Positions 6,157 through 59,788 of a stretch of 64,000 nucleotides of DNA are shown piece by piece. A program made the translations under genes and the position numbers. Origin of the DNA: Halorhodospira halochloris (lineage in GTDB: Bacteria > Pseudomonadota > Gammaproteobacteria > Nitrococcales > Halorhodospiraceae). Each line of letters starts with the position of its first letter. Within the stretch, counting starts at the first letter, position 1. Where the stretch lies: NCBI RefSeq assembly GCF_002356555.2, contig NZ_AP017372.2, positions 310,001-374,000 on the forward strand, read 5' to 3'. The notes beneath the pieces were generated by a model. It was not told the origin of the DNA and did no database searches. It saw only the letters and a program-made list of their open reading frames with translations.

Positions 6157-6236
6157 GCAAATGCGCTTAATCAAATGCGAACGCTGGCTGTTAGGCTCCG
6201 CCCTGCTTGGTCCTGAGGCAGGCCCCCTTGCGGGAA

Positions 6237-6376
6237 CCTCTAAAACTTCGCCGGCGCCACCATCCGCCCCGGTGTGGAGGACGCCGTGAATCCATCCCTG
6301 GAGGCTTCATGGCGCCATCCCTGGCGCCAAGACCTCCACACCGGGGCGGATGGTGGCGCCGGCGAAGTTTTAGAGG
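6237..6376. repeat. Long palindrome family, copy P2
   Basis: Perfectly complementary 43-nt arms (6237-6279, 6334-6376) with ends CCTCTAAAAC/GTTTTAGAGG and the shared 54-nt centre. The arm interior (CGCCGGCGCCACCATCCG) differs completely from P1 but is close to P6, where a C/T change in the left arm is matched by G/A in the right arm. Confidence 0.9.
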
Positions 6377-6546
6377 CACCCTTGCAGATGATCAGTTATT
6401 GAGCAGCACCCGCGTGAGTTGGTCTCGAGAAGCGCCCGGTGCACGACTAGGTTTTGCCCGGTTGATCAACCAAGCGGATCACCCCCGAGGATTATCCCCA
6501 AGGGGTTTGAGCTGCTGAGCCTATAGTTGCCACCCGTTGACATAGC

Positions 6547-10280: not shown

Positions 10281-10820
10281 ATGCAAGAAGAATTTGCGGG
10301 GCTTTCCATAGAGCTGCAAATCGCTGATATTGCCGCTCAGGATGACTGTGATGCGGTTGTCAACGCGGCCAATCCTGAGCTGCGCCCAGGCGGTGGGGTG
10401 GCTGGTGCCATCCATGATGGCGCTGGGCCAGAGCTGGAGCAGGCTTGTCGGCCCCTTGCCCCCATCGAGCCGGGCGAAGCGGTTATCACCGATGCGTTCC
10501 AATTGCCCAACCGCTATGTCATTCACTGCCTCGGGCCGGTATTCGGGGTGGACGAGCCGTCGGATGAGTTGCTCGCCGATTGTTACCGTAACTCACTGCG
10601 CTTGGCCGAAGAGCATCAGCTCAGCTCGATCGCCTTCCCGGCGATCTCCACCGGGGCGTTCTGCTTTCCTATGGTCCAGGCGGCGCGGATAGCTTTGGAG
10701 ACCCTGGTGAAGGAGGCGGGCAGTCTCCAGCATGTGAAGTTGGCCCGCTTTGTGTTGCCCAACGACCGGGCTTTGCAGGCACATGAGCGGGTTATGGCAG
10801 AACTGGTGGAGGAGACGTGA
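10281..10820 (+). CDS. Macrodomain protein (O-acetyl-ADP-ribose deacetylase-like)
   Basis: About 179 aa with macrodomain signatures: IELQIADIAAQDDCDAVVNAANPELRPGGGVAGAIHDGAG, then VIHCLGPVFGV, and AFPAISTGAFCFP for the distal phosphate of ADP-ribose. Such proteins remove acetyl or ADP-ribosyl groups. The ATG is preferred over the GTG three bases earlier because GGAGG is spaced five bases from the ATG and only two from the GTG. Its stop overlaps the start of the next gene (GTGA), so the two are coupled. Confidence 0.9.
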   Translation: MQEEFAGLSIELQIADIAAQDDCDAVVNAANPELRPGGGVAGAIHDGAGPELEQACRPLAPIEPGEAVITDAFQLPNRYVIHCLGPVFGVDEPSDELLADCYRNSLRLAEEHQLSSIAFPAISTGAFCFPMVQAARIALETLVKEAGSLQHVKLARFVLPNDRALQAHERVMAELVEET

Positions 10821-12478
10821 GTGTAGCCCTTGACTTGCAGCGTGTGGAGCAGCTCTGGGATGAGTACGCCCTGCCGGCTCTCAAATCCTTTGTCGAGATC
10901 CCGGCCAGATCTCCCCATTTCGATGCTAAATGGCAGGAAAACGGCCATCTCGATGCAGCTCTGGAGCTCGGCAAGCAGTTCTGCTTGACCCACTTGCCCG
11001 ACGCTCAAGCCGAGATAGTCCGCTTGCCAGGGCGTACCCCGCTGTTGTTCGTCGATGTGCCGGCAACGGGAGGCGGGGCGACGGCCGGCGAGACTGCGGC
11101 GACTGGCTCAGCAGGTGCTGAGACAGCTGTTGCTAGCGGTGCAACAAAGGGCGGCGCCTCTGAAGTTGGCGAGGCACCTGCCGGGGCCTCAACTGCCGGC
11201 GCCTCAACTGCCGGCGCCGCAACTGCCGGCGCCGCAACTGCCGGCGCCGCAACTGCCGGCGCCGCAACTGCCGGGGCCGCAACTGCAGGCGCCTCAACCA
11301 CCGGCGCCGCAACAGCCGGCGAAGCCGCTCCCACAGCCCTTATCTACGGCCACTTCGACAAGCAGCCAGAGAATACCGGCTGGTCGCCAGGCCTTGACCC
11401 CTGGCAGCCGGTTGTCCGCGACGGCAAGCTCTACGGGCGCGGCGCCGTCGATGACGGCTACTCACTCTTTTCGGCAGTAATCGCTATCGCCGCGCTGCGT
11501 GAAGAGGGACAGGCACACTCACGCTGTGTCTTGGTCATCGAAACTTGTGAGGAGAGCGGCAGCTTTGATCTGCTCGCTTACCTGGATGAGTTGAGTGAGC
11601 GCATCGGCCAGCCCGATTTGGTGATTTGCCCCGATGCTGGTTGCGGTACCTACGATCGACTTTGGTGTACGACCTCTCTGCGCGGCATGGTCAGTGGAAC
11701 CTTGCGGGTTGATGTGCTCGGTGAAGGTGTCCACTCCGGGGATGCCGGTGGCGTTGTGCCATCAAGTTTCCGGGTCTTGCGCGCATTGATTTCGCGTTTG
11801 GAGGATGAGCAGAGCGGCAAGATATTACCTCAGCATTGCAATGTTGCGATCCCTGAGCTGCGTCGGCAGCAAGCGGTGCATGCCGGGGAGGTGTTAGGCG
11901 AGATTACCAAGGACCGCTTCCCTTTCCTGGAAGGCGTCGAGGCGCAGTCTGATGATCCCGCCGAGCGGATCCTTGATCGCAGCTGGCGAGCCGCGGTTGA
12001 GGTGATAGGCGCTGAAGGTTTGCCGCCTGTTGAGGCCGCGGGCAATGTCCTGCGTCCCTACACTGCTACTAAGCTGGCCTTGAGGTTGCCCCCGACCGCC
12101 GATGGCCATGCCGTTGCGCAGGAGCTAGAGAGGTTGTTCACAGTGGAACCTCCGGCGAATGCTCGGGTGGAGTTCGAGGTGGATGCTGTTGCGAATGGTT
12201 GGGCCGCCCCGCAACCATCGGCGTGGCTTACCTCGGCCTTGGAGCGAGCAGCTCAGGCTTATTACGGCAAAGAGCCGGTTCACATGGGCGAGGGCGGTAC
12301 GATTCCGTTTATGAGTTGGTTGCAGGAGCGCTTCCCGAGCGCCGATTATGTGGTCACTGGGGTGGCTGGCCCCGGGTCCAATGCCCACGGCCCGGATGAG
12401 TTCCTGCATCTTGATGCGGCGCGGCGGTTGACGGCTAGCATGGGTGAGGTGGTTGCTGGTTTGGCGAAATCAAGGTAG
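10817..12478 (+). CDS. M20-family metallopeptidase (dipeptidase) with a low-complexity insert
   Basis: 553 aa zinc peptidase: metal-binding GHFDKQP, GRGAVDDGYS, CEESGS and C-terminal GEGGTIPFMSWL regions match the M20 family. Between strand TPLLFVDVPATG (about residue 80) and ALIYGHFDKQP (about 172) lies a roughly 90-residue Ala/Thr/Gly insert, partly nine 5-residue repeats. Family members normally have a short loop there. One exact GGGACAGGCAC 11-mer encodes GQAH at residue 231. The GTG start overlaps the macrodomain gene stop. The exact substrate cannot be told. Confidence 0.9.
   Translation: MSVALDLQRVEQLWDEYALPALKSFVEIPARSPHFDAKWQENGHLDAALELGKQFCLTHLPDAQAEIVRLPGRTPLLFVDVPATGGGATAGETAATGSAGAETAVASGATKGGASEVGEAPAGASTAGASTAGAATAGAATAGAATAGAATAGAATAGASTTGAATAGEAAPTALIYGHFDKQPENTGWSPGLDPWQPVVRDGKLYGRGAVDDGYSLFSAVIAIAALREEGQAHSRCVLVIETCEESGSFDLLAYLDELSERIGQPDLVICPDAGCGTYDRLWCTTSLRGMVSGTLRVDVLGEGVHSGDAGGVVPSSFRVLRALISRLEDEQSGKILPQHCNVAIPELRRQQAVHAGEVLGEITKDRFPFLEGVEAQSDDPAERILDRSWRAAVEVIGAEGLPPVEAAGNVLRPYTATKLALRLPPTADGHAVAQELERLFTVEPPANARVEFEVDAVANGWAAPQPSAWLTSALERAAQAYYGKEPVHMGEGGTIPFMSWLQERFPSADYVVTGVAGPGSNAHGPDEFLHLDAARRLTASMGEVVAGLAKSR
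11186..11320 (+). repeat. 15-bp in-frame minisatellite inside the M20 peptidase
   Basis: Nine tandem 15-bp units of the form GCCGCAACTGCCGGC, with variants GCCTC... at units 1, 2 and 8. They encode (A-A/S-T-A-G)n, residues 124-168. Near-identity of units 3-6 points to recent slippage or unequal exchange; length is kept a multiple of three. Confidence 0.95.
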
Positions 12479-12709: not shown

Positions 12710-14122
12710 ATTCCGAAAGTACCTGCTGCACTCCTGACAGCTCCCTCATCCGGTCAGGGTAAGTCCCTGATAACTGCGGCACTGGCTCGGTTGCATAAAA
12801 ACGCAGGTCGTCGGGTGCGGGTATTCAAACATGGCCCGGACTACCTCGATCCGATGGTTCTGGAGGTGGCTTCTGGAGCCCCGGTTTACCAACTCCACCC
12901 TTGGATGATCGGTTCCGACGAGTGCCGTTACCGGGTAGCTGCTGCTGCACAAGATGCCGACGTAATTCTAGTCGAGGGTGCTATGGGGCTTTACGATGGC
13001 TCGCCCTCCAGCGCCGATTTAGCAAGCCTTTTAGGCCTGCCGGTAGCGCTTGTAGTAGACGCCAAAGCCATGGCGGAAACCTTCGGAGCGATAGTTGCAG
13101 GGATTGCCGGTCACCGAGACGATATCGATATTTTCGGGGTAATAGCTAACCGTGTTGGTAGCCAAGGGCACGCCGCAATGCTGCGCTCAAGCGTACCTCA
13201 GAGCCAAGCATGGTTAGGAGCTGTGCCGCGCAGTGATGCCTTGGCCGTCGCAGACCGCCATCTGGGTCTGGTGCAGGCTGAAGAATTACACGACCTGGAT
13301 GAGCGACTAGGTACAGCAGCGGATGTCCTCGCTGAGGCAGGTTTGGGTGAATTGCCTCCGGCTGTACATTTTGCCGACCCGGAACCACTGCCCCCGCCAC
13401 CGGCACTGCTCGCCGGAAAGCGCATAGCGGTTGCTCGCGATCGCGCCTTTGCCTTCATCTATCGCGCTAACATCGAGCTGCTTGAAGCAATGGGCGCCGA
13501 ACTAGCCTATTTCTCGCCCCTAGAAGATCTTCAGGTGCCCGAAGCAGATGCCATTTGGCTGCCAGGCGGTTACCCAGAACTATACGCAGCAGAACTAGCC
13601 GCCAACAGCTCCATGCTGCAATCTTTGCGCGACCATCATCGCGGCAGGGGTGGCAGGGGGACAGGCACAGATATGGGTGGCAACGGCAGAGGCGGTAAGG
13701 GCGGTAGGGGGACAGGCACAGGAGATTTTAGAGGGACAGGCACACTAGATGGATCCAGTCGCAAAGGGACAGGCACACCAATCCTGGCTGAATGTGGAGG
13801 CCTGATGTATTGCGCTACAGAAATACATGACAAGAGCGGCGCGCGGCATGCCATGCTAGGGCTGTTGCCAGGAAAGGCGGAAATGGCTGAGCGCTTGGTG
13901 GGATTGGGCCTGCAGTATTGGCAAGCCGGTGACGAGCAGCTTCGCGGTCATACCTTCCATCATTCGCGATTCAATACTGAGGAGCAGCCAGCTGCGTACA
14001 CAAGCAGACGCAGCGGAGGGGCAGCAGAGCCAATTTTTAAAATGGGTTCATTAACGGCGACATATTTTCATGGGTACTTCCCCTCTGCACCTAAGCTAGT
14101 CGCTTGTTTTTTCAGTACTTAG
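12710..14122 (+). CDS. cobB: Cobyrinic acid a,c-diamide synthase, apparently with an ATT start
   Basis: It amidates the a and c side chains of (hydrogeno)cobyrinate using glutamine and ATP. Reading from ATT at 12710 gives PKVPAALLTAPSSGQGKS with the essential P-loop, then RVFKHGPDYLDPMVLE, and the glutamine amidotransferase domain with Cys in AECGGLMY and His in YFHGYF. The first ATG, GTG or TTG in frame (TTG 12791) would remove the P-loop, and a stop lies 27 bases before the ATT. AGGGAG sits nine bases upstream of the ATT. About 40 residues of GTGT-rich insert (317-356) precede the catalytic Cys loop. Confidence 0.88.
   Translation: MPKVPAALLTAPSSGQGKSLITAALARLHKNAGRRVRVFKHGPDYLDPMVLEVASGAPVYQLHPWMIGSDECRYRVAAAAQDADVILVEGAMGLYDGSPSSADLASLLGLPVALVVDAKAMAETFGAIVAGIAGHRDDIDIFGVIANRVGSQGHAAMLRSSVPQSQAWLGAVPRSDALAVADRHLGLVQAEELHDLDERLGTAADVLAEAGLGELPPAVHFADPEPLPPPPALLAGKRIAVARDRAFAFIYRANIELLEAMGAELAYFSPLEDLQVPEADAIWLPGGYPELYAAELAANSSMLQSLRDHHRGRGGRGTGTDMGGNGRGGKGGRGTGTGDFRGTGTLDGSSRKGTGTPILAECGGLMYCATEIHDKSGARHAMLGLLPGKAEMAERLVGLGLQYWQAGDEQLRGHTFHHSRFNTEEQPAAYTSRRSGGAAEPIFKMGSLTATYFHGYFPSAPKLVACFFST
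13658..13776 (+). repeat. Four GGGACAGGCAC 11-mers in cobB
   Basis: Exact copies start at 13658, 13709, 13733 and 13766, spaced 51, 24 and 33 bases (all multiples of three), all in the gene's sense orientation, read as GTGT. Confidence 0.97.
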
Positions 14123-14271: not shown

Positions 14272-15672
14272 ATGGAAACAGGCCAATACGGGAATTGGCT
14301 AACGGTAATAGGCGTTGGTGAAGAGGGCGAGGCGGGTTTATCTCCGGCTGCCCGAAGTATAATCCGTAATGCCGAACTAGTGGTGGGTGGTAGTCGCCAC
14401 CTGGATTTGGTGGCAGGTCTTATAAATGGCCAACGCCTGATTTGGTCTTCGCCGCTATCAGCAACACTGCCGCAGCTGCTTGCTTGGCGAGGTCAGCGTG
14501 TGGTGGTGATGGCTTCAGGAGATCCGCTTTTTTTTGGTGTCGGCAGTACTCTGCAGCGCTACCTCCCGCTTGAGGAGATGTCCCTTATTCCCCATCCCTC
14601 CTGCGTGTCATTAGCCGCAGCCCGGCTCGGCTGGACCCAGCAAGACTGCACTACCATCTCACTCTCCGGGCGCCCACTGGAAAGTTTGCGCGCCGTATTG
14701 CAGCCAGGGCGTGGCGTCTTTGTGCTCAGCGCTGATGCTTCTACCCCTGTCAGAGTAGCAAATGCCCTAGTTGAGTGGGGATTCGGAGCCACAACTATTT
14801 GCGTCCTAGAGGCGCTTGGCGGCCCCCGCGAAGCTATCAGCCATTATTCGGCTACGGACCTCGCACAGAAAACCGAGGGACAGGCACAAAGCCCGGTAAA
14901 AAGCCCATTGAATAGTGGGAATACTGAGGGACAGGCACAGAAAGTTGGGCAAGCAGGAGGGGGTCATGGGTCTGGCTCAGAGGCAGAAGAGGAGGCAGCA
15001 GGAGGACAGGCACAAGGTTTTGTAGACCAACAAGCGAATGGCGATGTGCCAGCATTTGCCCAAATCAACCTGTTAGCCTTGGATGTGATTGCTGACAGCG
15101 GGGCTCGGATAATCCCTTTTGTGCCTGGCCTTATCGATGAGTGGTTCGAGCACGATGGTCAGATAACCAAGCGCGAAATCCGCTCCGTCACGCTTTCTAG
15201 CCTGCGTCCACAGCACGGACAAATGCTATGGGATGTTGGTTGCGGATCAGGTTCAATTGCTATCGAGTGGCTGTTGGCCGATTCTTCTACTCAGGCTGTA
15301 GCAATCGACCAAGAACCGGAACGGGCAGATCGAGCGGCCCGCAACGCTGCAGCTTTTGGTGTCCCCAGATTGGATGTTCGAACGTCTCTAGCGCCCAAGG
15401 CATTCCCTGATTTGCCTACCCCTGATGCGATCTTCCTTGGAGGGGGGCTGCGCGACATAAATGTCATTAAAGCAGCCTGGGATGCTTTGCCCGCAGGGGG
15501 AAGGTTGGTGGCCAATGCGGTTGTTATTGAAACCGAGCAGCTACTCTACCAAGGCTGGCAGAATTACGGTGGTTCTCTCACCAGGCTCTCGGTAGAGAGA
15601 CTAGGTAATGTAGGTTCGCTCCATGCATTCCGCCCTTCTATGACAGTATTGCAATGGGCAGCGGAAAAGTGA
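14272..15672 (+). CDS. cobL: Precorrin-6Y C5,15-methyltransferase (decarboxylating), CbiE-CbiT fusion
   Basis: 466 aa bifunctional corrin enzyme. The N-terminal CbiE domain (GVGEEGEAGLSP, GDPLFFGVG, HPSCVSLAAARLGW) and the C-terminal CbiT SAM-methyltransferase domain (DEWFEHDGQITKREIRS, LWDVGCGSGSIAIEW) are as in CobL of the aerobic pathway. The inter-domain linker (about 195-255) is extended by Gly/Gln/Ala/Glu-rich sequence carrying 11-mer repeats. It follows cobB in the same direction with a 149-base gap containing a stem-loop. Confidence 0.95.
   Translation: METGQYGNWLTVIGVGEEGEAGLSPAARSIIRNAELVVGGSRHLDLVAGLINGQRLIWSSPLSATLPQLLAWRGQRVVVMASGDPLFFGVGSTLQRYLPLEEMSLIPHPSCVSLAAARLGWTQQDCTTISLSGRPLESLRAVLQPGRGVFVLSADASTPVRVANALVEWGFGATTICVLEALGGPREAISHYSATDLAQKTEGQAQSPVKSPLNSGNTEGQAQKVGQAGGGHGSGSEAEEEAAGGQAQGFVDQQANGDVPAFAQINLLALDVIADSGARIIPFVPGLIDEWFEHDGQITKREIRSVTLSSLRPQHGQMLWDVGCGSGSIAIEWLLADSSTQAVAIDQEPERADRAARNAAAFGVPRLDVRTSLAPKAFPDLPTPDAIFLGGGLRDINVIKAAWDALPAGGRLVANAVVIETEQLLYQGWQNYGGSLTRLSVERLGNVGSLHAFRPSMTVLQWAAEK
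14877..15013 (+). repeat. GGGACAGGCAC 11-mers in the cobL linker
   Basis: Exact copies at 14877-14887 and 14928-14938 and a one-mismatch copy at 15003-15013; spacings are 51 and 75 bases. All are in sense orientation and read as GQAQ. Confidence 0.95.
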
Positions 15673-15852
15673 TGGTAGCTTTTGTGTCTGTGCCTGTACC
15701 CTATCTCTTTATTGTGCCTGTCCCCTATCTCTCCCTATCTCTCTCTTACAAGCATATCTGTTGGGCTGCTAGCAGCTGAGACTAGCTACCACGCACCGTG
15801 TCGATTTCTCCTTTCAGGATAGGCCCATCTCTTTTTTTGCAAACCAATAGCA
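15673..15852. other. Intergenic stretch with reverse-orientation 11-mer
   Basis: Downstream of cobL. It contains GTGCCTGTCCC at 15714-15724, a near copy at about 15690, and a CTATCTCT-rich run. No gene recognised. Confidence 0.6.
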
Positions 15853-16074: not shown

Positions 16075-16563
16075 CTAACAGCTTGGATAAGCCGCTATGG
16101 CGCCCGCGGCAGATAGCATGCCAATGATGATTAAAACTACCACGTATATTTCCAGCATCCCTCCGGTGCGTATCCGCAGTGGTGACTTGAACCGTTTTCG
16201 CAACGGCCATAGCAAAGGGATACCGGTTATGGTCAGCCAATCGGCTAGGAGGTGGAGCAGGTAACCGATAAGAAATGCGGCTAATAGTCCTTCAGCAAAA
16301 TAGCCCCACTGATAAAGCAGGAGGCCTCCAGCTATGAGTGCGAAGGATGAGTGAGTTATGCCTCGGTGGCTAACAAGTTTGGCCAGCGGGCGAGATATGA
16401 ATGGCAGGTTGCGACCTATCCAAGAGCGCGGGTAATCAATATCGGGTGCCAAACTGCCTAGGACAGCCGCAGAAAATGTTTCAGGCTGCAGTGGCTGTCC
16501 GGTGTATACTGCAAAAGTCGCCCATCCGACCGTTCCGATGGTGACATGAGAGATGGCCATCAT
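16075..16563 (-). CDS. YdjM-like metal-dependent membrane hydrolase (DUF457)
   Basis: 162 aa with four or five hydrophobic segments and conserved polar motifs SHVTIGTVGW, LGSLAPDIDYPRS, SHRGITHS and YLLHLLADWLT, the His/Asp pattern of the YdjM/DUF457 inner-membrane family. Biochemical function in that family is not established. The ATG overlaps the RAYT stop (ATGA), so the two are read together. Confidence 0.85.
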   Translation of the reverse strand: MMAISHVTIGTVGWATFAVYTGQPLQPETFSAAVLGSLAPDIDYPRSWIGRNLPFISRPLAKLVSHRGITHSSFALIAGGLLLYQWGYFAEGLLAAFLIGYLLHLLADWLTITGIPLLWPLRKRFKSPLRIRTGGMLEIYVVVLIIIGMLSAAGAIAAYPSC

Positions 16564-17645
16564 TGGTGATTAACCAGTTCCGTCTGTGCTGTAGTCATGG
16601 CTCCAACCTGGCGCCGCCTATAAAGACATTCAAAGCGGGTGGCTTGTTCAAGCCACTGCTTATCGGCTATCCCAAGCCGTTGCAGAATAGGTGGCAAGCT
16701 ATGGGCAAGAGCGCCTTTTTTGTGCGGCCTTATGGCTCTGCCACTGAAATCAACTAATTTAAGGTAATCATCAAAACTGCAAGGAATCCCAAGTTTATAA
16801 TCTTTTTGTAAAGCATCCTGATCAGTGGCGAGGCCTCTGCTGACGGGATTTGGTTTAGCTATTCTTGAATGCTCAATCGTATCGCAGTTATCGCTGTTAG
16901 CGGCTTCAACGGTGGAGCTTTTAAACTTAAGCAGTGGTTTTAGGGGGACTTCAAAGCGGAGAAGAGAACCAGTATCGAGCTGTTCGCGGACTGCTTGTTG
17001 AAGATTAAACCTTGGCTCAAGGCGTTCCCGTAGCCCCGTATGTTCACTGGATTCAGGAGTTGAAGCGGCATTTGCCCGGACAGGGTTTAGGTCAACATAA
17101 GCCATACAGCTTAAAAGAGCTGCATCATTGAGTAATGCTTGAGATTTAAATCTAGACTCCCAGAAGTGTCCGGAGCACTGATCCTCTTTGTTGGCCTTTC
17201 TAGCTATTGGCTCATTAAGGCATTTCATGAACCAACTCAGGCTACCTAGACGCTCCCTATAGCAACCGGCTAGTTCTGCGACTTGAGCAGTTTCAAGTTC
17301 ATCTAGCTGCTTCTTGGCAAGGTAGCGCTGAACTAGCAAGGGGCCCTTAAATAGGCAGCGCCATCTTTTAATCACATCTTCATTTGACCATGAATTAGCC
17401 TGATCTTGGTCGATTTTGACAACAATGTGATAGTGGTTAGCCATAATCGCATAGGTAACGATTTCCACGGCAAAGATTGAGCTAAGCAGCCGGATTCTTT
17501 CCTCAATGAACTGCTGTCGATGCTTATAGCACTTCCCGGTTACGTAATCTTGGCCGCAAAGGTAGCTACGCCGAACACAGCGCGACACGACGTGATAAAA
17601 AGGTGTACTGGAAAGAGAAATTTGATCACAACGAGGGCGGGGCAT
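16560..17645 (-). CDS. REP-associated tyrosine transposase (RAYT, Y1_Tnp/IS200-like)
   Basis: 361 aa single-strand DNA transposase. The N-terminus PRPRCDQISLSSTPFYHVVSRCVRR is typical; the HUH motif is ANHYHIVVKI and the candidate catalytic Tyr is in MAYVDLNPVRA; a long C-terminal extension follows. No flanking IS ends are seen. RAYTs are single-copy genes that mobilise short REP-type repeats; here the upstream gap holds five copies of the 11-mer in converging orientation, making those the natural candidates for its substrate. That link is inference. Its stop overlaps the start of the ydjM-like gene. Confidence 0.9.
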   Translation of the reverse strand: MPRPRCDQISLSSTPFYHVVSRCVRRSYLCGQDYVTGKCYKHRQQFIEERIRLLSSIFAVEIVTYAIMANHYHIVVKIDQDQANSWSNEDVIKRWRCLFKGPLLVQRYLAKKQLDELETAQVAELAGCYRERLGSLSWFMKCLNEPIARKANKEDQCSGHFWESRFKSQALLNDAALLSCMAYVDLNPVRANAASTPESSEHTGLRERLEPRFNLQQAVREQLDTGSLLRFEVPLKPLLKFKSSTVEAANSDNCDTIEHSRIAKPNPVSRGLATDQDALQKDYKLGIPCSFDDYLKLVDFSGRAIRPHKKGALAHSLPPILQRLGIADKQWLEQATRFECLYRRRQVGAMTTAQTELVNHQ

Positions 17646-17776
17646 ACAGGACTCTCCTTAGTCTGTCGATCATCGACCATCTCCTTTGGTCGCACTAATA
17701 TGCAAATCTTGTAACCGATTGTAGCAGGACATCGAAAAATATAATAGACAACGGGGTTTCGGTGGATAGCTGGATA

Positions 17777-17944
17777 GGGACAGGCACCGGGGATGGATAG
17801 GCAGGGATAGGGACAGGCACAATCTCATGAACTGACGAGGACAGGCACAGACATTGTAATCACAGTGCCTGTCCCCGCTCTCATGTCCCGTGCCTGTCCC
17901 CGCTCTCATGTCCCCACTCTCAACTCTCACCAAGTGCCTGTCCC
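17777..17944. repeat. Converging cluster of 11-mer repeats upstream of the RAYT
   Basis: GGGACAGGCAC at 17777 and 17810 (plus a one-mismatch copy near 17838), then GTGCCTGTCCC at 17865, 17890 and 17934. The two halves can pair as a large hairpin. The cluster fills the 310-base gap between the histidine kinase 3' end and the RAYT start. Confidence 0.95.
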
Positions 17945-29275: not shown

Positions 29276-29351
29276 GGTTATCAGGATGTGAACTATATGG
29301 TGGCATAATGCGAGTAGTGGACACATTTATTACCGGAGGGAGAAGTTGACC

Positions 29352-29717
29352 ATGGCCAAGATTGCCCACGAACCAGTAAAACGCGCCATGAGCCGCATTC
29401 GTGAACTCAGTGCCGACGAGGAAGCCCGCCGGCTAGCTTTCGTCAGAGAACGGGCTCTGCGCGACGAGGTTTCGCAGCTCAATGAGGCTAGACAAGAAGG
29501 CCTGGAAAAAGGCGAGCAAATTGGCTTGGTAAAAGGAGAGCAAATTGGCTTGGAAAAAGGCGAACAAATTGGCTTGGAAAAAGGAGAGCGATTGCGCGCT
29601 GAGAAGACCGCCCGAAACCTTATAAAAACTAATGCACTAAGCGATGAACAGATCGCCCAGGCAACCGGCTTAACTCAGGGGGAAGTAGCTCAGCTTCGTG
29701 CAGAACGGCAGAAATAG
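29352..29717 (+). CDS. Stand-alone Rpn C-terminal module (RpnS-like)
   Basis: 121 aa from the ATG preceded by GGAGGGAGAAGTTGACC. It starts MAKIAHEPVKRAMSRIREL and is nearly identical to the C-terminal module of the broken full-length gene at 29785-30646, with no nuclease domain in front. The middle has four G-E-Q-I-G-L-x-K-type heptads (GLEKGEQI, GLVKGEQI), and the end DEQIAQATGLTQGEVAQLR is a short helical motif. E. coli RpnS proteins are C-terminal pieces made from an internal start that inhibit the nuclease; this would be an orphan version. Function is inferred. Confidence 0.75.
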   Translation: MAKIAHEPVKRAMSRIRELSADEEARRLAFVRERALRDEVSQLNEARQEGLEKGEQIGLVKGEQIGLEKGEQIGLEKGERLRAEKTARNLIKTNALSDEQIAQATGLTQGEVAQLRAERQK

Positions 29718-32560: not shown

Positions 32561-32627
32561 GATGTGAACTATATGGTGGCATAATGTGAATGGTGGACAG
32601 ATTTATTACCGGAGGGAGAAGTTGACC

Positions 32628-33005
32628 ATGGCCAAGATTGCCCACGAACCAGTAAAACGCGCCATGAGCCGCATTCGTGAACTAAGTGCTGACGAGGAAG
32701 CCCGCCGGCTCGCTTTCGTCAGAGAACGGGCTCTACGCGACGAGGTTTCGCAGCTCAATGAGGCTAGACAAGAAGGTCGACAAGAGGGAATAAAAGAGGC
32801 TAGACAAGAAGGTCGACAAGAGGGAATAAAAGAGGGTCGGCAAGAAGGAATAAAAGAGGGACAACAAAGAGGACGACAAGAGGCTAAAGCCGAAACCGCC
32901 CGAAACCTTATAAAAACTAACGCGCTAACAGATCAGCAGATCGCTCAGGCAACCGGTTTAACACATGAGGAAATAGCTCAACTGCGTGCTGAGCGGCAGG
33001 GCTGA
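32628..33005 (+). CDS. Second stand-alone Rpn C-terminal module (RpnS-like)
   Basis: 125 aa, same MAKIAHEPVKRAMSRIREL start, same GGAGGGAGAAGTTGACC leader and same terminal DQQIAQATGLTHEEIAQLR motif as the copy at 29352. The linker is a different expansion: alternating RQEG, IKEA and IKEG units, making it the longest of the set. The nuclease domain is absent. It ends 60 bases before tRNA-Arg. Confidence 0.75.
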   Translation: MAKIAHEPVKRAMSRIRELSADEEARRLAFVRERALRDEVSQLNEARQEGRQEGIKEARQEGRQEGIKEGRQEGIKEGQQRGRQEAKAETARNLIKTNALTDQQIAQATGLTHEEIAQLRAERQG

Positions 33006-33972: not shown

Positions 33973-34565
33973 TTGCCTAACGTCAACGTCCTCAGACGGA
34001 AGAGTACAAAGCCGATAATCAGAGCTATGAAAGCGAATGTAATCAAGGTGCCAAAGGTGCCCAAATATTCTACCATCCTTTCCCAGTTAGCGCCGGCTGT
34101 ATAGCCACCAAGGACTAATAGGGAGTTCCAAGCGGTACTGCCGAGAAAGGTAAAGAGCAGGAACTTTGGCATAGGCATGGGCAAGAGGCCTGCGGGAACC
34201 GAGACAACGCTGCGCACGGTAGGCAAGAAGCGGCCAAAAAAGACGATCAAGGCGCCGTGACGCGAAAAGACCTTATCCATTGCCGCAATGTCGCTCCTCT
34301 TGAATAGATACCAGCGGCCACCTAGAGTTAGCCACCAAATCATCCGTTCCCGGTCAAGCCAGCGGGCCGCATAGTAAATCAGCGTCGAGCCGAAGGTTGA
34401 GCCGAGACTGGCCGCTGCCAGCGCCGCTAAGGGGTGGTAATCCCCTTGCGAGGCGGCGTAACCGAGAAAAGGCATCAACGTCTCGGGGGCGATGAAGATC
34501 ATGGCAATGAAGATGCCAATCAGCCCGAGGTGTTCAAGGATTTCTATGATTATCTCCGCTGCCAT
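33969..34565 (-). CDS. DedA-family membrane protein
   Basis: 198 aa with about five membrane segments and the DedA (VTT/SNARE-associated) motifs FIAPETLMPFLGY, GSTFGSTLIYYAARWLDRE, and FFGRFLPTVRSVVSVPAGLLPMP. DedA proteins are undecaprenyl-phosphate or lipid flippases. It overlaps glgA by 16 bases at its start and the rhodanese gene at its end. Confidence 0.92.
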   Translation of the reverse strand: MAAEIIIEILEHLGLIGIFIAMIFIAPETLMPFLGYAASQGDYHPLAALAAASLGSTFGSTLIYYAARWLDRERMIWWLTLGGRWYLFKRSDIAAMDKVFSRHGALIVFFGRFLPTVRSVVSVPAGLLPMPMPKFLLFTFLGSTAWNSLLVLGGYTAGANWERMVEYLGTFGTLITFAFIALIIGFVLFRLRTLTLGK

Positions 34566-36205
34566 CCTGTAGCCCTGATTCTCTCGTACAAATCAACGTA
34601 GGCATCAGCTGACCGATCCCATGAGTAATCGGCGCTCATGCCGCGAGCCTGTATCTTTTGCCAAGCCTCTTGATCCTGCCAATAGCTGAGGGCGCGTTCC
34701 ACGGTCGCGGCTAATGAGCCGGCATCGGCTGCCGCCGTGCAAAAGCCGTTGCCACCGGCGTGCGCATCTACATCGAGCACCGTATCAGCAAGTCCGCCGG
34801 TGGGGTTGACCAGCGGGGGAGTGCCGTAGCGCAGCGAGTAGAGCTGGTTGAGACCGCAGGGTTCGAAGCGAGAAGGCATTAGAAAGATATCACTCCCGGC
34901 CTCGATGCGGTGTGCCTGTCCCTCATCGTAACCGATGGATACGCCGACCCGACCAGGATGGGCTTGAGCTGCCTGGAGCAATGCTCGCTCCAGGGTGTTA
35001 TCGCCAGAGCCGAGAATGGCCAGGCGAGCGCCGCTGGCTAACAGCCGGGGCAATGCGCCGAGGATCAAATCGATCCCCTTTTGTTCAACCAAGCGGCCGA
35101 TAAAGCCGAGCAGGGGGGATTGGGGGTCATCGTCAAGGCCGATTTCTACCGCGATGGCCTGACGGTTTTTGGCCTTGGCTTGAGGGTCAGGGGCAGAGTA
35201 GTTGGCGGCTAGATGCGGGTCGGTAGCCGGATCCCACGTTGTGGTGTCAACGCCATTGATAATGCCGTGCAGATCACTGCTGCGCGAGCGCAGCAGGCCG
35301 TCGAGTCCCCAGCCGAATGCCGGGGTTTGAATCTCGCGGGCGTAGGTTGGGCTGACTGTGGTGATTGCATCACTGAGGGTTAGCGCGCCCTTGATAAAGG
35401 CCAACTCGCCGTAGAACTCCAGCCGTTCGGGGTTCCACATTGCAGCGGGCAACTCGAGCTGAGCAAATACGTCAGCCGAGAAAATGCCGCGGTAGGCCAG
35501 GTTGTGGATGCTAAAGACCGTCCGTGGGCGCTCTTGGTGGCTCTCGCTATAGTCCTGCAAAAATACCGGGGCTAGTGCGCTTTGCCAGTCGTTGGCGTGG
35601 AGGATATCGGCCTGCCAATCGAGCACCTCCCCGGCGGCGATGGCCGCCGCTACCCGCGACAACCAGTAGAAGCGCAAGTGGTTATCCGGCCACGGCTCCC
35701 CGCTGGCGGTGGCATATGGCGATCCAACCCGCTCGAAAAGCTCGGGATCGTCGAGCAGCCATACAGACACCTCGCTGCCCGGGAGCCGGCCTTCAATGAT
35801 CTTTTGCTTGTGGTACCGGTTGGAGGATTGTGCCTGTCCCTTTGAGGGTGCCGGGGATTGTGCCTGTCCCTTTGAGGGGGTCGGTGCCTGTCCCTTTGGT
35901 TGTGCCTGTCCCCCTCCCGGTGCCTGTCCCTCTGATTGGGAGATTTGTGCCTGTCCCTCTGATTGTGCCTGTCCCTTTGTGGAGGATGTCTGTGCCTGTC
36001 CCTTTACACTCCCGGCGCCACTGCCGAGGGAGAGGTACTTGATCGGCCCTTCAAGGCGTTCGCGGGCGCTGGGGTAAGCTGGCATCAGAAGACGCACGTC
36101 GTGGCCGCGGTCGGCTAGCGCACAGGTGAGTCCGTAAGCGACGTCGCCCAGACCGCCGGTTTTAGCCAGTGGCCAGGCTTCTGCGGTGACAAAGAGAATT
36201 TTCAA
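34550..36205 (-). CDS. glgA: Glycogen synthase with a 60-residue repeat insert
   Basis: 551 aa GT5 enzyme that adds glucose from ADP-glucose to glycogen. N-terminal FVTAEAWPLAKTGGLGDVAYGL (ADP-glucose KTGGL motif), GFIGRLVEQKG, and PSRFEPCGLNQLYSLRYGT are diagnostic. Residues about 65-128, a loop in the N-terminal half, are a low-complexity insert of GQAQ/GQAP peptides encoded by eight 11-mers. A ninth exact 11-mer lies in conserved sequence at residue 429 (YDEGQAHRIEAGSD). It follows glgB by 3 bases. Confidence 0.96.
   Translation of the reverse strand: MKILFVTAEAWPLAKTGGLGDVAYGLTCALADRGHDVRLLMPAYPSARERLEGPIKYLSLGSGAGSVKGQAQTSSTKGQAQSEGQAQISQSEGQAPGGGQAQPKGQAPTPSKGQAQSPAPSKGQAQSSNRYHKQKIIEGRLPGSEVSVWLLDDPELFERVGSPYATASGEPWPDNHLRFYWLSRVAAAIAAGEVLDWQADILHANDWQSALAPVFLQDYSESHQERPRTVFSIHNLAYRGIFSADVFAQLELPAAMWNPERLEFYGELAFIKGALTLSDAITTVSPTYAREIQTPAFGWGLDGLLRSRSSDLHGIINGVDTTTWDPATDPHLAANYSAPDPQAKAKNRQAIAVEIGLDDDPQSPLLGFIGRLVEQKGIDLILGALPRLLASGARLAILGSGDNTLERALLQAAQAHPGRVGVSIGYDEGQAHRIEAGSDIFLMPSRFEPCGLNQLYSLRYGTPPLVNPTGGLADTVLDVDAHAGGNGFCTAAADAGSLAATVERALSYWQDQEAWQKIQARGMSADYSWDRSADAYVDLYERIRATGWQRR
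34912..34922 (-). repeat. Single 11-mer in a conserved part of glgA
   Basis: Exact GGGACAGGCAC in the sense strand, encoding G-Q-A-H where family members usually have other residues (for example A-x-A/S-H). It is in the same codon phase as the eight copies upstream (918 bases from the one at 35830). Confidence 0.9.
35830..36002 (-). repeat. Eight 11-mers in glgA
   Basis: Exact copies start at 35830, 35860, 35884, 35902, 35920, 35947, 35965 and 35992; spacings 30, 24, 18, 18, 27, 18 and 27. All are sense oriented, all in one codon phase (GQAQ or GQAP). Confidence 0.98.
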
Positions 36206-36208
36206 GGC

Positions 36209-38365
36209 CTAGTCTCCCGTCCCCAGTGCTCCGTCATCATGGCTACTGCTTACCAGCACCACGGCTGCCAGAGGTGGCAAGGTCAGAGAGACAGAGTAGG
36301 GCTGACCGCTCCACGGGATCTCTTCAGCCATAACTCCGCCACCGTTGCCGAGGTTGGAGCCGCCGTAGCAGGCGGCGTCACTGTTTAATCGCTCTTGCCA
36401 AAAGCCCGGCTGAGGGACGCCAAGGCGGTATCCGAAGCGCGGAACCGGGGTGAAGTTGAGCGCGACTAGGGAGTAGTCATGGTGTTTTTCTTTGTGCCTG
36501 TCCCCTTCCTCACTGTGCCTGTCCCTCTCCAATCCATCTAAATCTCTGTGCCTGTCCCCCTGCAAATCCCCCTGATCATTGTGCCTGTCCCTTTGATCTC
36601 TGTGCCTGTCCCCCTCGCTTCGGGCATAACGGTAGTAGCTGAGGACGGACTGGTCGCTGTCGTGGCAATCGGCCCAGGCGAAGCCGCGGTGGTCGAAGTC
36701 GTAGTGGTGGAGGGCTGGGCAGCTGGAGTAGAGGGCGTTGAGGTCGGCGATCAGCTGTTGGATGCCGCGGTGGTATTCGGAGCATAGTTCGTGCCAGTCG
36801 AGGCCTCGGGTCTCTGACCACTCGTGGCGTTGGGCGAACTCGCAGCCCATGAAGAGCAGCTTCTTGCCGGGGTAGGTGAACTGGTAGGCGTAGAGGAGGC
36901 GAAGGTTGGCGAAGGCCTGCCAGTCGTCGCCGGGCATGCGTTGGAGGAGGCTGCCCTTGCCGTGCACTACCTCGTCGTGGCTAAACGGCAGGACGAAGTT
37001 CTCGGTGAAGGCGTAGAGCATGCCGAAGGTTAGCTGATCGTGGTGATAGCGCCGGTGGACCGGATCCTCGCGCATGTAGGTCAGGGTGTCGTGCATCCAG
37101 CCCATGTTCCACTTCATGGTAAAACCTAGGCCGCCGAGATAGGTCGGGCGGGTAACCTGCGGCCATGAGGTCGACTCCTCGGCTAGTACACAGGTGCCGG
37201 GTTGTTCGCCGTGGGTGACGCTATTCATCTCGCGTAGAAACGAAATCGCCTCAAGATTCTCATTGCCGCCGTAGATGTTCGGGATCCAGTCGCCGTCCTC
37301 GCGCGAATAATCGAGATAGAGCATGGAGGCGACGGCATCGACCCGGAGCCCGTCGAGGTGGAAGGTCTCTAGCCAGTAGAGGGCGCTGGCGAGCAGGAAC
37401 GAGCGCACCTCATTACGCCCGAAGTTGAAGATCAGCGTTCCCCAGTCGCGATGCTCACCCTGGCGCGGGTCGGCATGCTCATACAGCTGCGTGCCATCAA
37501 ACCGGGCCAGGGCCCATTCGTCGCGCGGGAAATGGGCCGGCACCCAATCGAGGATAACGCCGATGCCGTTACAGTGGCAGTGATCGACGAAATAGCGAAA
37601 GTCATCAGGCGAGCCGAAACGGCTGGTAGGCGCAAAATAGCCGGTCGTCTGATACCCCCACGAACCGTCAAAGGGGTGCTCGGTGATCGGCAGCAGCTCG
37701 ATGTGGGTAAAACCGAGGGCGCGGACGTGGTCGACTAGGCGGTGGGCGAGGGTGCGGTAGTCGAGGAACTGACCGTGTTCATCGAGTTGCCACGAACCTA
37801 GGTGAACCTCGTAGATAGACATTGGCTGGTGCTGCCAAAAATCCGGGTGCCGGCGGCGGTGCTCCATCCACTCCGCATCCTGCCAGCGATAGTTATCAGG
37901 CGGCTCGACAATGGCAGCCGTATTCGGGCGCAGCTCGAAACGCCGCCCGTAAGGATCGGTCTTGGTTAAGACCTCTCCGCTATCGCGATTGCGGATGGCG
38001 AACTTATACAGCGCCCCGGGTTCGACAGCCGGGATAAAAATTTCCCAGATCCCGGCCTCAGGGCGCACCTGCATCGGATGGCGAGCGGCGTCCCAGTCAT
38101 TGAAATCGCCGATCACACTGACCCGATCAGCATTCGGAGCCCACACCGCAAAGCGCACCCCGCGGCTGCCCTGGTGCTCAACCTGGTGGGCACCGAGAAA
38201 ATTCTGGGTATGCCAGTGACGCCCCTCGCTAAAGAGGTGCAGATCGAAATCGGCGAGCGTCGGGGCCTGCTCATCGCTGGAGCTAGGGGCAACAGCGCCG
38301 GGTGACGAAGGTGTTGTTGAGCGCGGCGAAGAGGTCGGTTTACTCACGGCGTTATCCAAATCCAA
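36209..38365 (-). CDS. glgB: 1,4-alpha-glucan branching enzyme with repeat insert
   Basis: 718 aa GH13 enzyme making alpha-1,6 branches. The N-terminal CBM48 domain ([23 protein letters not shown]) and catalytic sites [15 protein letters not shown] (nucleophile Asp), VLAEEST (acid Glu) and [13 protein letters not shown] are all present. In the C-terminal beta domain, between [11 protein letters not shown] and [14 protein letters not shown], lies a charged insert (residues about 580-630) of DRH-containing peptides encoded by five 11-mers. Probably first gene of the leftward glycogen operon, divergent from glgC. Confidence 0.96.
36494..36612 (-). repeat. Five 11-mers in glgB
   Basis: Exact copies start at 36494, 36515, 36548, 36581 and 36602 (spacings 21, 33, 33, 21). 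All are sense oriented and read in the third codon phase as (R/G)-D-R-H. Confidence 0.98.
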
Positions 38366-41477: not shown

Positions 41478-43033
41478 GTGGGCGTGGCCTAACAGAGCAA
41501 CGACGGGCTGGCGTACTTGCACACTTGAGCTCCTTGCCGGGTGGGCCGGGCAACGGCGACCTAGGCGCACACTCGCGCTACTTCGTAGATTGGCTAGCCA
41601 ATTGCGGCTTCAGCGTCTGGCAGATGCTACCGCTGGGACCGACCCACGAAGACCTCTGCCCCTACCAGTGCCTGTCCGTCCATGCCGCCGACCCGGGCTT
41701 CATCGACCTGCAACAACTCGTCGAAGCCGGCTACCTCAGCGCCGAGCAAGCCATACCGCCGACCGACCTCAGCCGCAGCGAACTCCTCAACTGGCGCTAC
41801 CAACGCCTGCGCGACGCCAGAGCCGGCTTCGTCGCCCGCCACGGCCAGAACGGAAAGGGACAGGCACAGGGAGAAGAGGGACAGGCACCGCCACCACCAC
41901 CGCCACCAGAAACAAACTCCGAGCTACGCGAGCTCCGGCAGTTTCGTGCCTGTCACTCTCACTGGTTGGAGGATTACGCCTTGTACATGGCGCTGCGCCG
42001 GGAGAACGAGTTCAGGCCCTGGTGGGAGTGGCCGCAGCCGTTGCGTGATCGGCAGCCGCAGGCGTTGGAGGAGGCGCGCGAGCGCCTGGGGGAGGAGTTA
42101 AATCAGGTCGTATTCGAGCAATTCATCTTTTTCCGCCAGTGGGCAGCGCTACGCGCCTATGCGGCAGAAAAGGGAGTGCTGCTATTCGGCGACATGCCGA
42201 TCTTCGTCGCCCACGATAGCGCCGAGGTATGGGCGCAGCGCGAGTACTTCGACCTTGGCGCAGATGGCCAACCGCTGAGTGTTGCCGGCGTGCCGCCCGA
42301 CTACTTCGCCGCCGATGGCCAGCGCTGGGGCAACCCCCACTACAACTGGCAGCGGATGGCAGAAGACGGCTTCAAGTGGTGGCTGCAGCGCCTGGAGACC
42401 CAGCTCGAACTATTCGACTTCGTGCGCCTCGACCACTTCCGCGGCCTAGCCGCCTACTGGTCAATCCCGGTTGAGGCAGAGACCGCCCGCGATGGCCACT
42501 GGGAACCGGCCCCAGGCCACGACCTACTTAGCGCAGTGGCCCAGCGCTTTGGCCAGATCCCGCTGGTTGCCGAGGACCTGGGCATCATCACCGACGATGT
42601 CGTGGCCCTGCGCGAGCAATTTGCCCTGCCGGGAATGAAAGTCCTGCAGTTCGCCTTCGACAGCGACTCGGCAAACCCCTACCTGCCGCACAACCACACA
42701 GCAGATAGCGTGGTCTACACCGGCACCCACGATAACGACACAACCATGGGCTGGTACGCCGATCTGGAGCCGTGGGTCACCGAGCGCATGCACTCATACC
42801 TCGGCCACCCCAACGAGCCGATGCCGTGGCCACTAGTGCGCGCCTCACTGGCCTCAGTTTCCGGCCTGGCCATCCTGCCGCTGCAAGACCTGCTCGCCCT
42901 GGGATCGGATCACCGCATGAACATCCCCGGCGTGGCCGAAGGCAACTGGCGTTGGCGCTTCGAGTGGGAGTGGTTACCGGATGACCTCAGCGGTTGGCTC
43001 TGGGAACTAAATTATCTTTATGGCCGCGTTTGA
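41474..43033 (+). CDS. malQ: 4-alpha-glucanotransferase (amylomaltase)
   Basis: 519 aa GH77 enzyme. RRAGVLAHLSSLPGGPGNGDLG, FGDMPIFVAHDSAEVWA, FDFVRLDHFRGLAAYWSIP (nucleophile Asp), LVAEDLGIITDDV and GTHDNDTTMGW are present. A roughly 25-residue insert KGQAQGEEGQAPPPPPPP (residues about 127-150) precedes FRACHSHWLEDYALYMALR; it carries two 11-mers. Start overlaps the GH57 gene by four bases; 3' end faces glgP. Confidence 0.96.
   Translation: MSGRGLTEQRRAGVLAHLSSLPGGPGNGDLGAHSRYFVDWLANCGFSVWQMLPLGPTHEDLCPYQCLSVHAADPGFIDLQQLVEAGYLSAEQAIPPTDLSRSELLNWRYQRLRDARAGFVARHGQNGKGQAQGEEGQAPPPPPPPETNSELRELRQFRACHSHWLEDYALYMALRRENEFRPWWEWPQPLRDRQPQALEEARERLGEELNQVVFEQFIFFRQWAALRAYAAEKGVLLFGDMPIFVAHDSAEVWAQREYFDLGADGQPLSVAGVPPDYFAADGQRWGNPHYNWQRMAEDGFKWWLQRLETQLELFDFVRLDHFRGLAAYWSIPVEAETARDGHWEPAPGHDLLSAVAQRFGQIPLVAEDLGIITDDVVALREQFALPGMKVLQFAFDSDSANPYLPHNHTADSVVYTGTHDNDTTMGWYADLEPWVTERMHSYLGHPNEPMPWPLVRASLASVSGLAILPLQDLLALGSDHRMNIPGVAEGNWRWRFEWEWLPDDLSGWLWELNYLYGRV
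41857..41888 (+). repeat. Two 11-mers in malQ
   Basis: Exact copies at 41857 and 41878, 21 bases apart, sense oriented, read as GQAQ/GQAP. A degenerate copy in opposite orientation (GTGCCTGTCAC) lies at 41946. Confidence 0.97.
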
Positions 43034-43136
43034 GTTGATGTGGCTTAAATCTTGGTTGATTCGCCCAGGATGCCAGTTTGATATGTCGCTAACTTGCAAC
43101 AGGCAACAGGCGCCTAGAACAGCTCCCCATTGGGAG
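43034..43136. other. Short gap between malQ and P5
   Basis: No gene or promoter recognised. Confidence 0.4.
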
Positions 43137-43334
43137 CCTCAATAAATTCTCCCCGGAGCCATATCCCCCTGGCCATATCCCCGGAGCCATTATCTGCCCC
43201 GGCGTGGAGGCTTCATGGCGCCAGGGATGGCGCCATGAAGCCTCCATGAAGCCTCCAGGGATGGATTCACGGCGTCCTCCACACCGGGGCAGATAATGGC
43301 TCCGGGGATATGGCCAGGGGGGATTTTTCAGAGG
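43137..43334. repeat. Long palindrome family, copy P5 (longest, centre inverted)
   Basis: About 198 bases between convergent malQ and glgP. Arms CCCCGGAGCCAT..CCCGGAGCCATTATCTGCCCC and their complement; the centre is in the opposite orientation to P1-P3 and P6 and has a duplicated CATGAAGCCTC segment. The position suits a shared terminator. Confidence 0.85.
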
Positions 43335-59092: not shown

Positions 59093-59788
59093 TTAAAGAC
59101 ACCCATTAGGCCACCAACTTGGCCAGGCCAGCACCTGTCCGTAATCCTGCTCTAAGCGCGCTCTGATTTTAGCAGCAAGACTGCCAGACGTTGGTGCAGC
59201 GCGATCATCAGCAAGCGCCCATTTTGAATGGACTATATCGATAGTTACCGGTGCCCTTGTAATGCCGAGGACGCGGAGCATCGCCAGGCGGTGACTGCCC
59301 TCGCGGCACTTTACAAGCCTACCGTCACGGTCGATTCGTACAGTGATCTCATGTCCAGGTTTGCCGCCGAGAGCCGACTGCTCTTTATAGCCGTCGTGGC
59401 TCAGTTCGAGCAGCAGTTTCCACTGCCTGTCAAAGTATGAATCCAGCTCAGCCACACTTTGCATGCGAGGATTCTTGATGTAACCAAGTCTCTCCAGCTG
59501 CTCGCGCATCTGGCCATAGCAATCCGTATCTTTGTACTTGCCCCCAGAAAGCCATATCTCGCGGATTTGAGCCTCGCGGAAAGGTTCGAGTGCCTGTCCC
59601 CCTAAATCCCATGTTCCGCCACATATCCAGAAAGGCCAGCGCTTGAGGTACCCCGGCCATTCGTAAAACATCTTCAGGTACTCAATATTCAGAGGGTTGG
59701 TCTCAATAATGACCGAGCCTCTGCGCGCTAGCATTAGCCACCGCGAACTATGGTGCAGGGTCTTGGATAGGGGGTTCATTTTGTCCAA
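59093..59788 (-). CDS. ParB-like core protein of the polysaccharide cluster
   Basis: 231 aa; GGKPGHEITVRIDRDGRLV then REGSHRLAMLRVLGI matches the core of the protein at 20522-21286. The N-terminal part (WPFWICGGTWDLGG, IWLSGGKYKDTDCYGQM) differs. One exact 11-mer (59590-59600), sense oriented, encodes GQAL. Unknown function; proteins with this core may be regulators or enzymes of glycan assembly. Confidence 0.7.
   Translation of the reverse strand: MDKMNPLSKTLHHSSRWLMLARRGSVIIETNPLNIEYLKMFYEWPGYLKRWPFWICGGTWDLGGQALEPFREAQIREIWLSGGKYKDTDCYGQMREQLERLGYIKNPRMQSVAELDSYFDRQWKLLLELSHDGYKEQSALGGKPGHEITVRIDRDGRLVKCREGSHRLAMLRVLGITRAPVTIDIVHSKWALADDRAAPTSGSLAAKIRARLEQDYGQVLAWPSWWPNGCL

Follow-up and report, generated by a model that had tools for sequence, protein, structure and literature searches.

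A short non-palindromic word as the probable recognition sequence of a RAYT transposase in Halorhodospira halochloris

A stretch of 64,000 nucleotides from Halorhodospira halochloris (contig NZ_AP017372.2, positions 310,001 to 374,000; this whole stretch is referred to as the window) carries a gene for a RAYT protein, i.e., a transposase of the TnpA-Y1 type, surrounded by numerous copies of a short word. The word is non-palindromic, it has the general form R-GACA-nn-CA, and in the window it is spelled as the 11-mer GGGACAGGCAC. We propose that GGGACAGGCAC is probably the dialect, in this genome, of the cognate recognition sequence of the RAYT, which would recognize it and act mainly on nearby DNA. 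Among RAYT-bearing genomes the word exists in several dialects; it lies inverted at the gene ends of relatives, thins out with distance from the RAYT gene, occurs within genes as in-frame or gap-free copies, and keeps its third codon positions. The features around the RAYT gene are the following (window coordinates):

15690..15724 (-), two copies of the word downstream of the RAYT gene and past the YdjM-like gene, with one mismatch at 15690 and exact at 15714
16075..16563 (-), gene for a YdjM-like membrane protein, overlapping the RAYT stop and containing no exact copy
16560..17645 (-), RAYT / TnpA-Y1 gene encoding 361 residues, with the HUH motif NHYH (70-73), WE (162-163) and YVDLNP (183-188)
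17777..17848 (+), three copies on the strand opposite to the RAYT, GGGACAGGCAC being exact at 17777 and 17810 and with one mismatch at 17838
17865..17944 (-), three exact copies, read as GTGCCTGTCCC, on the RAYT strand upstream of the gene, at 17865, 17890 and 17934

The RAYT protein and the word around it

The first-pass annotation of this DNA described a RAYT preceded by converging copies of the 11-mer, and this arrangement was confirmed, with three copies on the plus strand (one of them a mismatch copy) and three on the minus strand. The protein shows the HUH motif, the tyrosine and the Y1 fold of the TnpA-Y1 (IS200/RAYT) group. It scored 24 bits against PF01797 (Y1/HUH transposase, cut-off 23) and 40.3 bits against the NCBIfam model REP_Tyr_transpos, which is under the cut-off of 80 for that model. 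A search of the PDB with the sequence profile of the RAYT found no chain up to an E-value of 0.1; using its AlphaFold model (predicted local distance difference test, 83), the top Foldseek match in the PDB was E. coli TnpAREP (4er8, E 6.9e-4), the sole match below 0.001. Residues N70, H71, H73 and the stretch Y183-P188 are invariant across 36 aligned RAYT sequences, and YVDLNP was printed in 86 of 87 extracted rows, a set that includes the window gene and seven duplicates and for which the motif NH[YFLIV]H was required.

The motifs NHYH, WE and YVDLNP, together with the length of 361 residues, agree with the published table for subclass 2.3 (Quentin et al. 2018, PMC6006769), whose members have a median of about 325 residues; on this motif-based assignment the window RAYT fits a subclass-2.3 TnpA-Y1, with HUH and a single, presumably catalytic, tyrosine. 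The accessible part of that survey gives this subclass as prevalent in Chromatiales and Alteromonadales, and states that automatic and manual searches yielded no sequences resembling repetitive extragenic palindromes (REPs) for it. The likeness extends to the long C-terminal part and to the gammaproteobacterial hosts; unlike the subclass as published there, the gene studied here goes with a cognate non-palindromic motif that is inverted at the gene ends in most relatives and multiplied around some of them.

At one mismatch or less the window contains 36 copies of the word, 30 of them exact, versus 1.2 expected (standard deviation 1.16), and none of 100 shuffled sequences had as many. Those lying away from the RAYT gene are found as follows:

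11506..11516 (+), one copy in a gene for an M20 peptidase-like protein (10817-12478)
13658..13776 (+), four in-frame copies in a CobB/CbiA-like gene (12791-14122), within an insertion of about 42 residues lacking in three relatives
14877..15013 (+), three in-frame copies in a tetrapyrrole methylase gene (14272-15672), that at 15003 with one mismatch
34912..34922 (-), one copy in GlgA, a gap-free replacement that reads DEGQAHR here and DEALAHQ in a relative
35830..36002 (-), eight copies in GlgA (34550-36205), in an in-frame insertion of net about 67 residues lacking in four relatives
36494..36612 (-), five in-frame copies in the GlgB gene (36209-38365)
41857..41888 (+), two in-frame copies in a 4-alpha-glucanotransferase gene (41474-43033)
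59590..59600 (-), an outlying copy at 42 kb from the RAYT gene

The complete genome (2,834,560 bp) has 40 exact 11-mers and no copy of the reversed word. It was claimed previously that no locus other than the cluster upstream of the RAYT combines both orientations; this is not the case, given that an exact inverted pair lies elsewhere in the genome (741435 on the plus and 741464 on the minus strand), and that a second inverted set within the window spans 41857-41956 (41857 and 41878 on the plus strand, and 41946, with one mismatch, on the minus strand). No RAYT relics were detected, up to an E-value of 0.01, in seven stretches of 5-8 kb around the outlying copies of this genome.

The hairpin predicted for the upstream cluster is borne out for the cluster as such, which as single-stranded DNA folds at -46.5 kcal/mol versus a shuffle mean of -27 (z -6.6), because inverted copies adjoin each other there. 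What was not supported is the idea of a REP-type palindrome recognized as a hairpin: in 15 regions, calculated with RNA energy parameters, single copies paired as well with exchanged flanks as with their own (z -1.7 to +1.0), so that recognition of a hairpin at the single copy found no general support. Likewise, the combination of a hairpin and a 5' GT[AG]G in each repeat, characteristic of REPs and REPINs, was not found, the window consensus being without GTAG. As a separate observation, the islands of two other genomes (G026 and G051) have GTAG-like letters directly 5' of the core (TAGGGGACAGACA and GGTAGTGGACAGGCAC), which may be a remnant of the GTAG guide known from classical REPs.

Inverted gene ends and dialects among relatives

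The ends of the gene were compared using seven dialect words in the 61 of 79 named RAYT loci from which a full-length gene was recovered. Within 400 bp upstream, the motif is on the same strand as the gene 62 times and on the opposite strand three times; within 400 bp downstream the proportion is reversed, with 77 copies on the opposite strand and seven on the same strand. An upstream copy is present in 42 of the 61 loci and a downstream copy in 44. Inverted repeats flanking the gene, the arrangement of a TIRYT or TIRtron, are therefore present in relatives. The pair at 15690..15724 in the window lies on the RAYT strand, and is not the inverted downstream copy found in these 44 loci. At two loci (L153 and L162) the copies have about 20 nucleotides in common beyond the core (ACTAAACAAGACAGGCATGTTT and AAGCTATAAGGACACCCATCCTA), being closer to the end-repeat units of mobile elements.

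Some genomes with a RAYT and hardly any copy of the 11-mer use another spelling of the motif. An enrichment analysis of 9-mers, carried out with no preset motif, returned GGACAGACA in G026 (34 copies versus 0.5 expected) and GGACACCCA in G021 (37 versus 0.6). Genome-wide, RGGACAGACA occurs 38 times in G026 versus 1-7 times in five other genomes, and TGGACACCCA 58 times in G021 versus 3-12 in five others. In Halorhodospira abdelmalekii (G002) the three RAYT loci examined have three different adjoining spellings, i.e., GACACGCA (five copies), GACAGGCA (four) and GACATGCA (four), and four of the five copies of GGGACATGCA in its genome adjoin one RAYT. The dialect tracks the RAYT tree: over the 36 rows with GG or CC, six changes suffice, whereas 500 shuffles of the labels needed 11.8 on average and never fewer than 7. 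This tree has 80 rows, in 40 of which a dialect could be called at p < 1e-3; the four called rows with rarer letters and the 40 uncalled rows were left out of the count. Apart from this family, a Salinisphaera RAYT (L169) has another word (TCAGGCAACA / GTTGCCTGA) around it, present 21-22 times in 21 kb.

Islands centred on the RAYT gene and conservation of the word

Of the 40 exact copies in the H. halochloris genome, 30 are found no farther than 30 kb from the RAYT gene, versus 0.9 expected; the binomial p for this clustering overstates it, because copies within arrays are not independent. The test covered six genomes with full position lists, G018, G044 and G048 being left aside. Within another genus of the order (g10), the 11-mer falls within 30 kb of the RAYT in 30 of 37 cases in G030, 31 of 36 in G024 and 23 of 25 in G032, and islands in other dialects behave similarly (G026, 34 of 38 within 35 kb and 30 of 38 within 30 kb; G021, 41 of 58 within 30 kb). 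Pooled over 11 regions, i.e., ten g10 islands and the window, with some gene ends entered to about 0.5 kb, the density of the motif declines with distance from the RAYT, the successive values per kb being 1.48 (0-2 kb), 1.12, 0.94, 0.65, 0.28, 0.32, 0.18 and 0.05 (40-60 kb); these regions hold 389 motifs versus seven reversed control words. The island also follows the RAYT to different neighbourhoods, since the regions of G030 and G026 share one 190-nucleotide match only, which is within the RAYT gene.

Co-occurrence of RAYT and 11-mer across genomes, suggested in the first-pass annotation as a check, was found in a sample of 95 genomes (H. halochloris and 94 relatives): at least six 11-mers are present in nine of the 22 genomes with a strong RAYT match (E <= 1e-60) versus one of the other 73 (Fisher p 3.7e-6, with thresholds chosen after the tables had been seen and several of the genomes being close kin). 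The case that would have spoken against the association, many 11-mers without a RAYT, was represented only by G007, with six exact copies and no RAYT match. Five of these six belong to a longer and unrelated intergenic repeat, hence G007 does not provide such a case and was discarded as an orphan island. This repeat, of about 50 bp with the core CCCCGCCGGGGACAGGCACCCCGGCAGGGG, lies ahead of several starts of open reading frames (L101, contig C44, 18700-24201), and the 11-mer inside it is apparently a coincidence. In flanks, the GACAnnCA word is enriched at p < 1e-4 in 35 of 101 RAYT regions (79 named loci and 22 others, many of the g10 regions being homologous and not independent) and the reversed family in none of them.

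Within coding sequence the copies respect the reading frame. All 17 spacings between neighbours in the in-gene arrays of the window, the lone GlgA copy at 34912 being excluded, are multiples of three; among intergenic copies this is true of two of the five spacings in the upstream cluster, and also of that between 15690 and 15714. The GlgA and CobB insertions, aligned residue by residue with one relative each, encode low-complexity linkers. Other copies are not insertions. The homologous island of G026 and G021, which covers core genes that we take to be polA, engB and the glmU/glmS neighbourhood, allows both dialects to be compared site by site. Seven of 37 G021 sites were unaligned with G026, 13 had a gap within 6 nucleotides, three bore a motif and 14 were gap-free replacements, all 14 coding and 1-5 substitutions away from the G026 sequence. 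The three ungapped G026 counterparts read GGACAG[A/T]CA, one as GGACAGACA in a polA-like gene and two as GGACAGTCA, a second word of G026. Conversely, of 34 G026 sites, 14 were unaligned with G021, 15 had a gap, one bore the other dialect and four were gap-free without a motif. The previous suggestion that this locus may be the source of the repeats in the glg and cob genes is supported insofar as these belong to the same RAYT-centred island; it does not extend to all copies being mobilised units, since many in-gene copies are gap-free replacements.

Once present, the word is retained. At aligned sites the exact 11-mer was kept in 23 of 27 cases between G030 and G024, 25 of 26 between G030 and G044, 23 of 24 between G030 and G018, and 28 of 30 between G024 and G044, versus 5%, 4.5%, 11% and 21%, respectively, of nearby control windows. 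Third codon positions, in genes picked by a simple choice of open reading frames, are identical within the motif and in its flanks, respectively, at 81/83 and 883/1746 positions (G030/G024), 78/79 and 833/1650 (G030/G044), 73/73 and 882/1506 (G030/G018), 95/96 and 1397/1931 (G024/G044), and 64/71 and 986/1431 (G032/G048); for the first three pairs this is 98-100% in the motif versus 50-59% in the flanks. Given that third codon positions are kept while the flanks diverge, the word is held as DNA and not only as protein. Nucleotide identity between species of the g10 islands (L069-L091) tends to be lowest near the RAYT. For G030/G024 it is 0.73 at the RAYT and 0.82-0.84 at -19 to -27 kb, yet 0.78 at -15 and -31 kb, and the dip is weak for G024/G044; it could reflect a higher rate of evolution, or the import of alleles, in the vicinity of the RAYT.

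Several results weigh against a RAYT that acts locally on a cognate word. In H. halochloris itself, 10 of the 40 copies are more than 30 kb from the RAYT gene, and at one mismatch or less no opposite-strand copy lies within 400 bp downstream of it, the upstream copies (17865-17944) being present. Among the 79 named loci, 19 pass p < 1e-4 in their flanks and 60 fall short of it, and in the Colwellia group (L147, L164, L177 and L178) none of the seven words was found within 400 bp of the gene and no enrichment was detected. The motif family was first noticed in the same data in which it was counted, for which reason the reversed family is the fair yardstick. Conservation is weaker between distant pairs (10/19 for G030/G032, 10/16 for G030/G048, 11/19 for G018/G032 and 11/21 for G024/G032, with controls at 3-4%), in the close pair G032/G048 (15/21 versus 17% of controls) and in comparisons with G028, where the 11-mer was kept at 0 of 2 (G030/G028) and 0 of 3 sites. 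By eye, and unlike in the islands analysed for pairing, flanks that might pair are seen in H. abdelmalekii, in two of the four copies at L107 (GGAAGGGG...CCCCTTTC) and in the copies at L105 (AGTG...CACT), which speaks against the lack of a hairpin. The picture is also less clean in genomes with several RAYTs: G028, omitted from the decay count, has at least two of them and copies from -57 to +18 kb of one, within the 80 kb read. In Alteromonas marina, 11 out of 38 copies cluster within 5 kb around one RAYT. Exilibacterium (G097), with 120 copies of RGACAGGCAY and 18 of the reversed word (not every position being listed), has clusters adjoining RAYTs (C7, C15 and C6 at 368 kb) and also dense clusters without a nearby RAYT match (C19, nine copies in 0.4 kb; C4, five; C6 at 325 kb, seven). 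Finally, an island of G050 (L188-L189) contains 34 copies of GACAGGCA and 32 of GACACCCA in 31.6 kb with one RAYT found, which looks like a dialect change under way. The same-strand clusters of Exilibacterium at C19 (20672-21086) and C4 (348567-348901) could be orphan islands or solo arrays.

Proposed recognition and local action, and competing explanations

The variable letters of R-GACA-nn-CA differ between RAYT lineages, and in most of the named relatives inverted words at one or both ends of the gene resemble the terminal repeats of a mobile unit. Judging from the HUH/Y1 chemistry, established in E. coli for TnpAREP (PMC8266576, in its accessible part), the RAYT would bind, cut and join single-stranded DNA at the word. 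It would act mainly near its own gene, by cis preference or by linkage, and for this reason the copies would be local. Many extra copies have arisen within about 15-30 kb on each side, in both orientations, between genes and in core genes. Some go back to small insertions or duplications, in frame, within loops of the proteins and many are gap-free coding replacements, and they are then kept exact at the DNA level while their surroundings diverge. The strong localisation suggests that the action of the RAYT, or its benefit, is tied to the neighbourhood of the RAYT gene. That coding letters are replaced and silent positions conserved is better explained by point mutation, with subsequent selection or conversion, than by transposition on its own.

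Why copies should be favoured is the least certain step. It could be that the action of the RAYT at the copies makes RAYT-bearing DNA more likely to be joined, recombined or transferred, a possibility to which we give well under an even chance; a biased transmission of RAYT-linked DNA would nevertheless be our preferred cause. A specific form of it, put forward tentatively and with somewhat less confidence still, is a selfish local drive, in which the RAYT and its linked words form a self-favouring haplotype. Action at the words would raise the transfer or integration of RAYT-bearing DNA, any mutation spelling the word within the co-transferred tract (about 30 kb) would be favoured even in essential genes, and a change in the specificity of the RAYT would re-spell its neighbourhood.

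Ordinary dispersal of REPs or terminal inverted repeats (TIRs), in which the RAYT copies an end-repeat unit as single-stranded DNA nearby and the in-gene copies are tolerated loop insertions, would account for the GlgA and CobB arrays, both in-frame insertions lacking in the compared relatives, and for the extended similarity of intergenic copies at L153 and L162. Transposases often act in cis. The vicinity of a rayt had already been put forward as the preferred place for new REPs to form (Nunvar 2010, PMC2817692, accessible part). We consider the dispersal account unlikely, given the gap-free replacements at 14 of 37 G021 sites and the exactness of third codon positions over long divergence, which is beyond what dispersal alone gives.

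About equally doubtful is a process in which single-stranded motif fragments made by the RAYT anneal at near-match sites in nearby replication gaps, so that concerted conversion from the RAYT end repeats, rather than selection, keeps the island uniform. Gap-free multi-base replacements, local decay, uniformity of the dialect and the two-dialect island of G050 would all follow from it; on the other hand, most of the 15 profiled regions have just a short run of letters in common outside the core, and the share of copies on the RAYT strand is inconsistent (17/34 in G026, 24/50 in G021, 23/36 in the window and 6-9 of 23-38 in six homologous g10 islands). A strand bias was thus discarded as a general feature, as it differs between islands; these counts speak neither for nor against a lagging-strand process.

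DNA uptake sequences lie in core genes, are strongly conserved within coding sequence, and are distributed genome-wide. The presence of strongly conserved copies in core genes could accordingly suggest a mark that serves the host (in regulation, chromosome organisation or as a genome-wide uptake sequence), the RAYT being incidental. This is very improbable, because the island moves with the RAYT into unlike neighbourhoods, the spelling is tied to the single RAYT locus, with three dialects in the genome of G002, and the distribution is local and not genome-wide: unlike uptake sequences, the word is concentrated around the RAYT, with the proportions given above for H. halochloris and similar ones in five other genomes. 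What it has in common with the uptake sequences of Neisseriaceae, as described in the accessible part of PMC3630211, is a short word with species dialects. Coding constraint, low-complexity slippage or chance, to which the linkers encoded by the GlgA and CobB arrays might point, can be rejected in view of the shuffled sequences, the conserved third codon positions, the intergenic copies in both orientations and the lack of enrichment of the reversed control words.

The proposed recognition of the word by the RAYT, with mainly local action, has partial counterparts among known systems. As in the TIRYT or TIRtron elements (Di Nocera et al. 2013, PMC3733652), a RAYT-like gene lies between terminal inverted repeats; according to the accessible part of that work, some TIRYT TIRs share GGGGWSAS, to which GGGGACAG fits, and some TIRs form repeat families. 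RAYT-centred islands, dialects, replacements in core genes and conservation at silent positions set the present case apart from that account. The RAYT-REP and REPIN systems (PMC2817692 and PMC8266576, accessible parts) similarly consist of a transposase with its own repeat family, with covariation of repeat and RAYT and a proposed formation near the gene. A REP is a GTAG hairpin, mostly intergenic and spread over the genome; the window motif forms no general hairpin, is largely intragenic and is local. A limited literature search recognized no published description of the motif or its islands.

A transposase subclass for which no repeat had been reported thereby gains a partner sequence, and the role of RAYTs can be put to the test with a short substrate of known sequence and with specificity variants that exist in nature. 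The results also show that a word linked to the protein of a mobile element can be forced on the coding sequence of core genes nearby and retained there at silent positions, which bears on the reading of constraint and divergence in regions of this kind.

Two further similarities were noticed within the window. Open reading frames at 29346-29717 and 32586-33005 share the protein stretch MAKIAHEPVKRAMSRIRELSADEEARRLAFVRERALRDEV, which suggests a duplicated gene or gene part, and those at 6207-6518 and 43089-43403 have the stretch PRCGGRRESIPGGFM in common, which points to a second repeat family.

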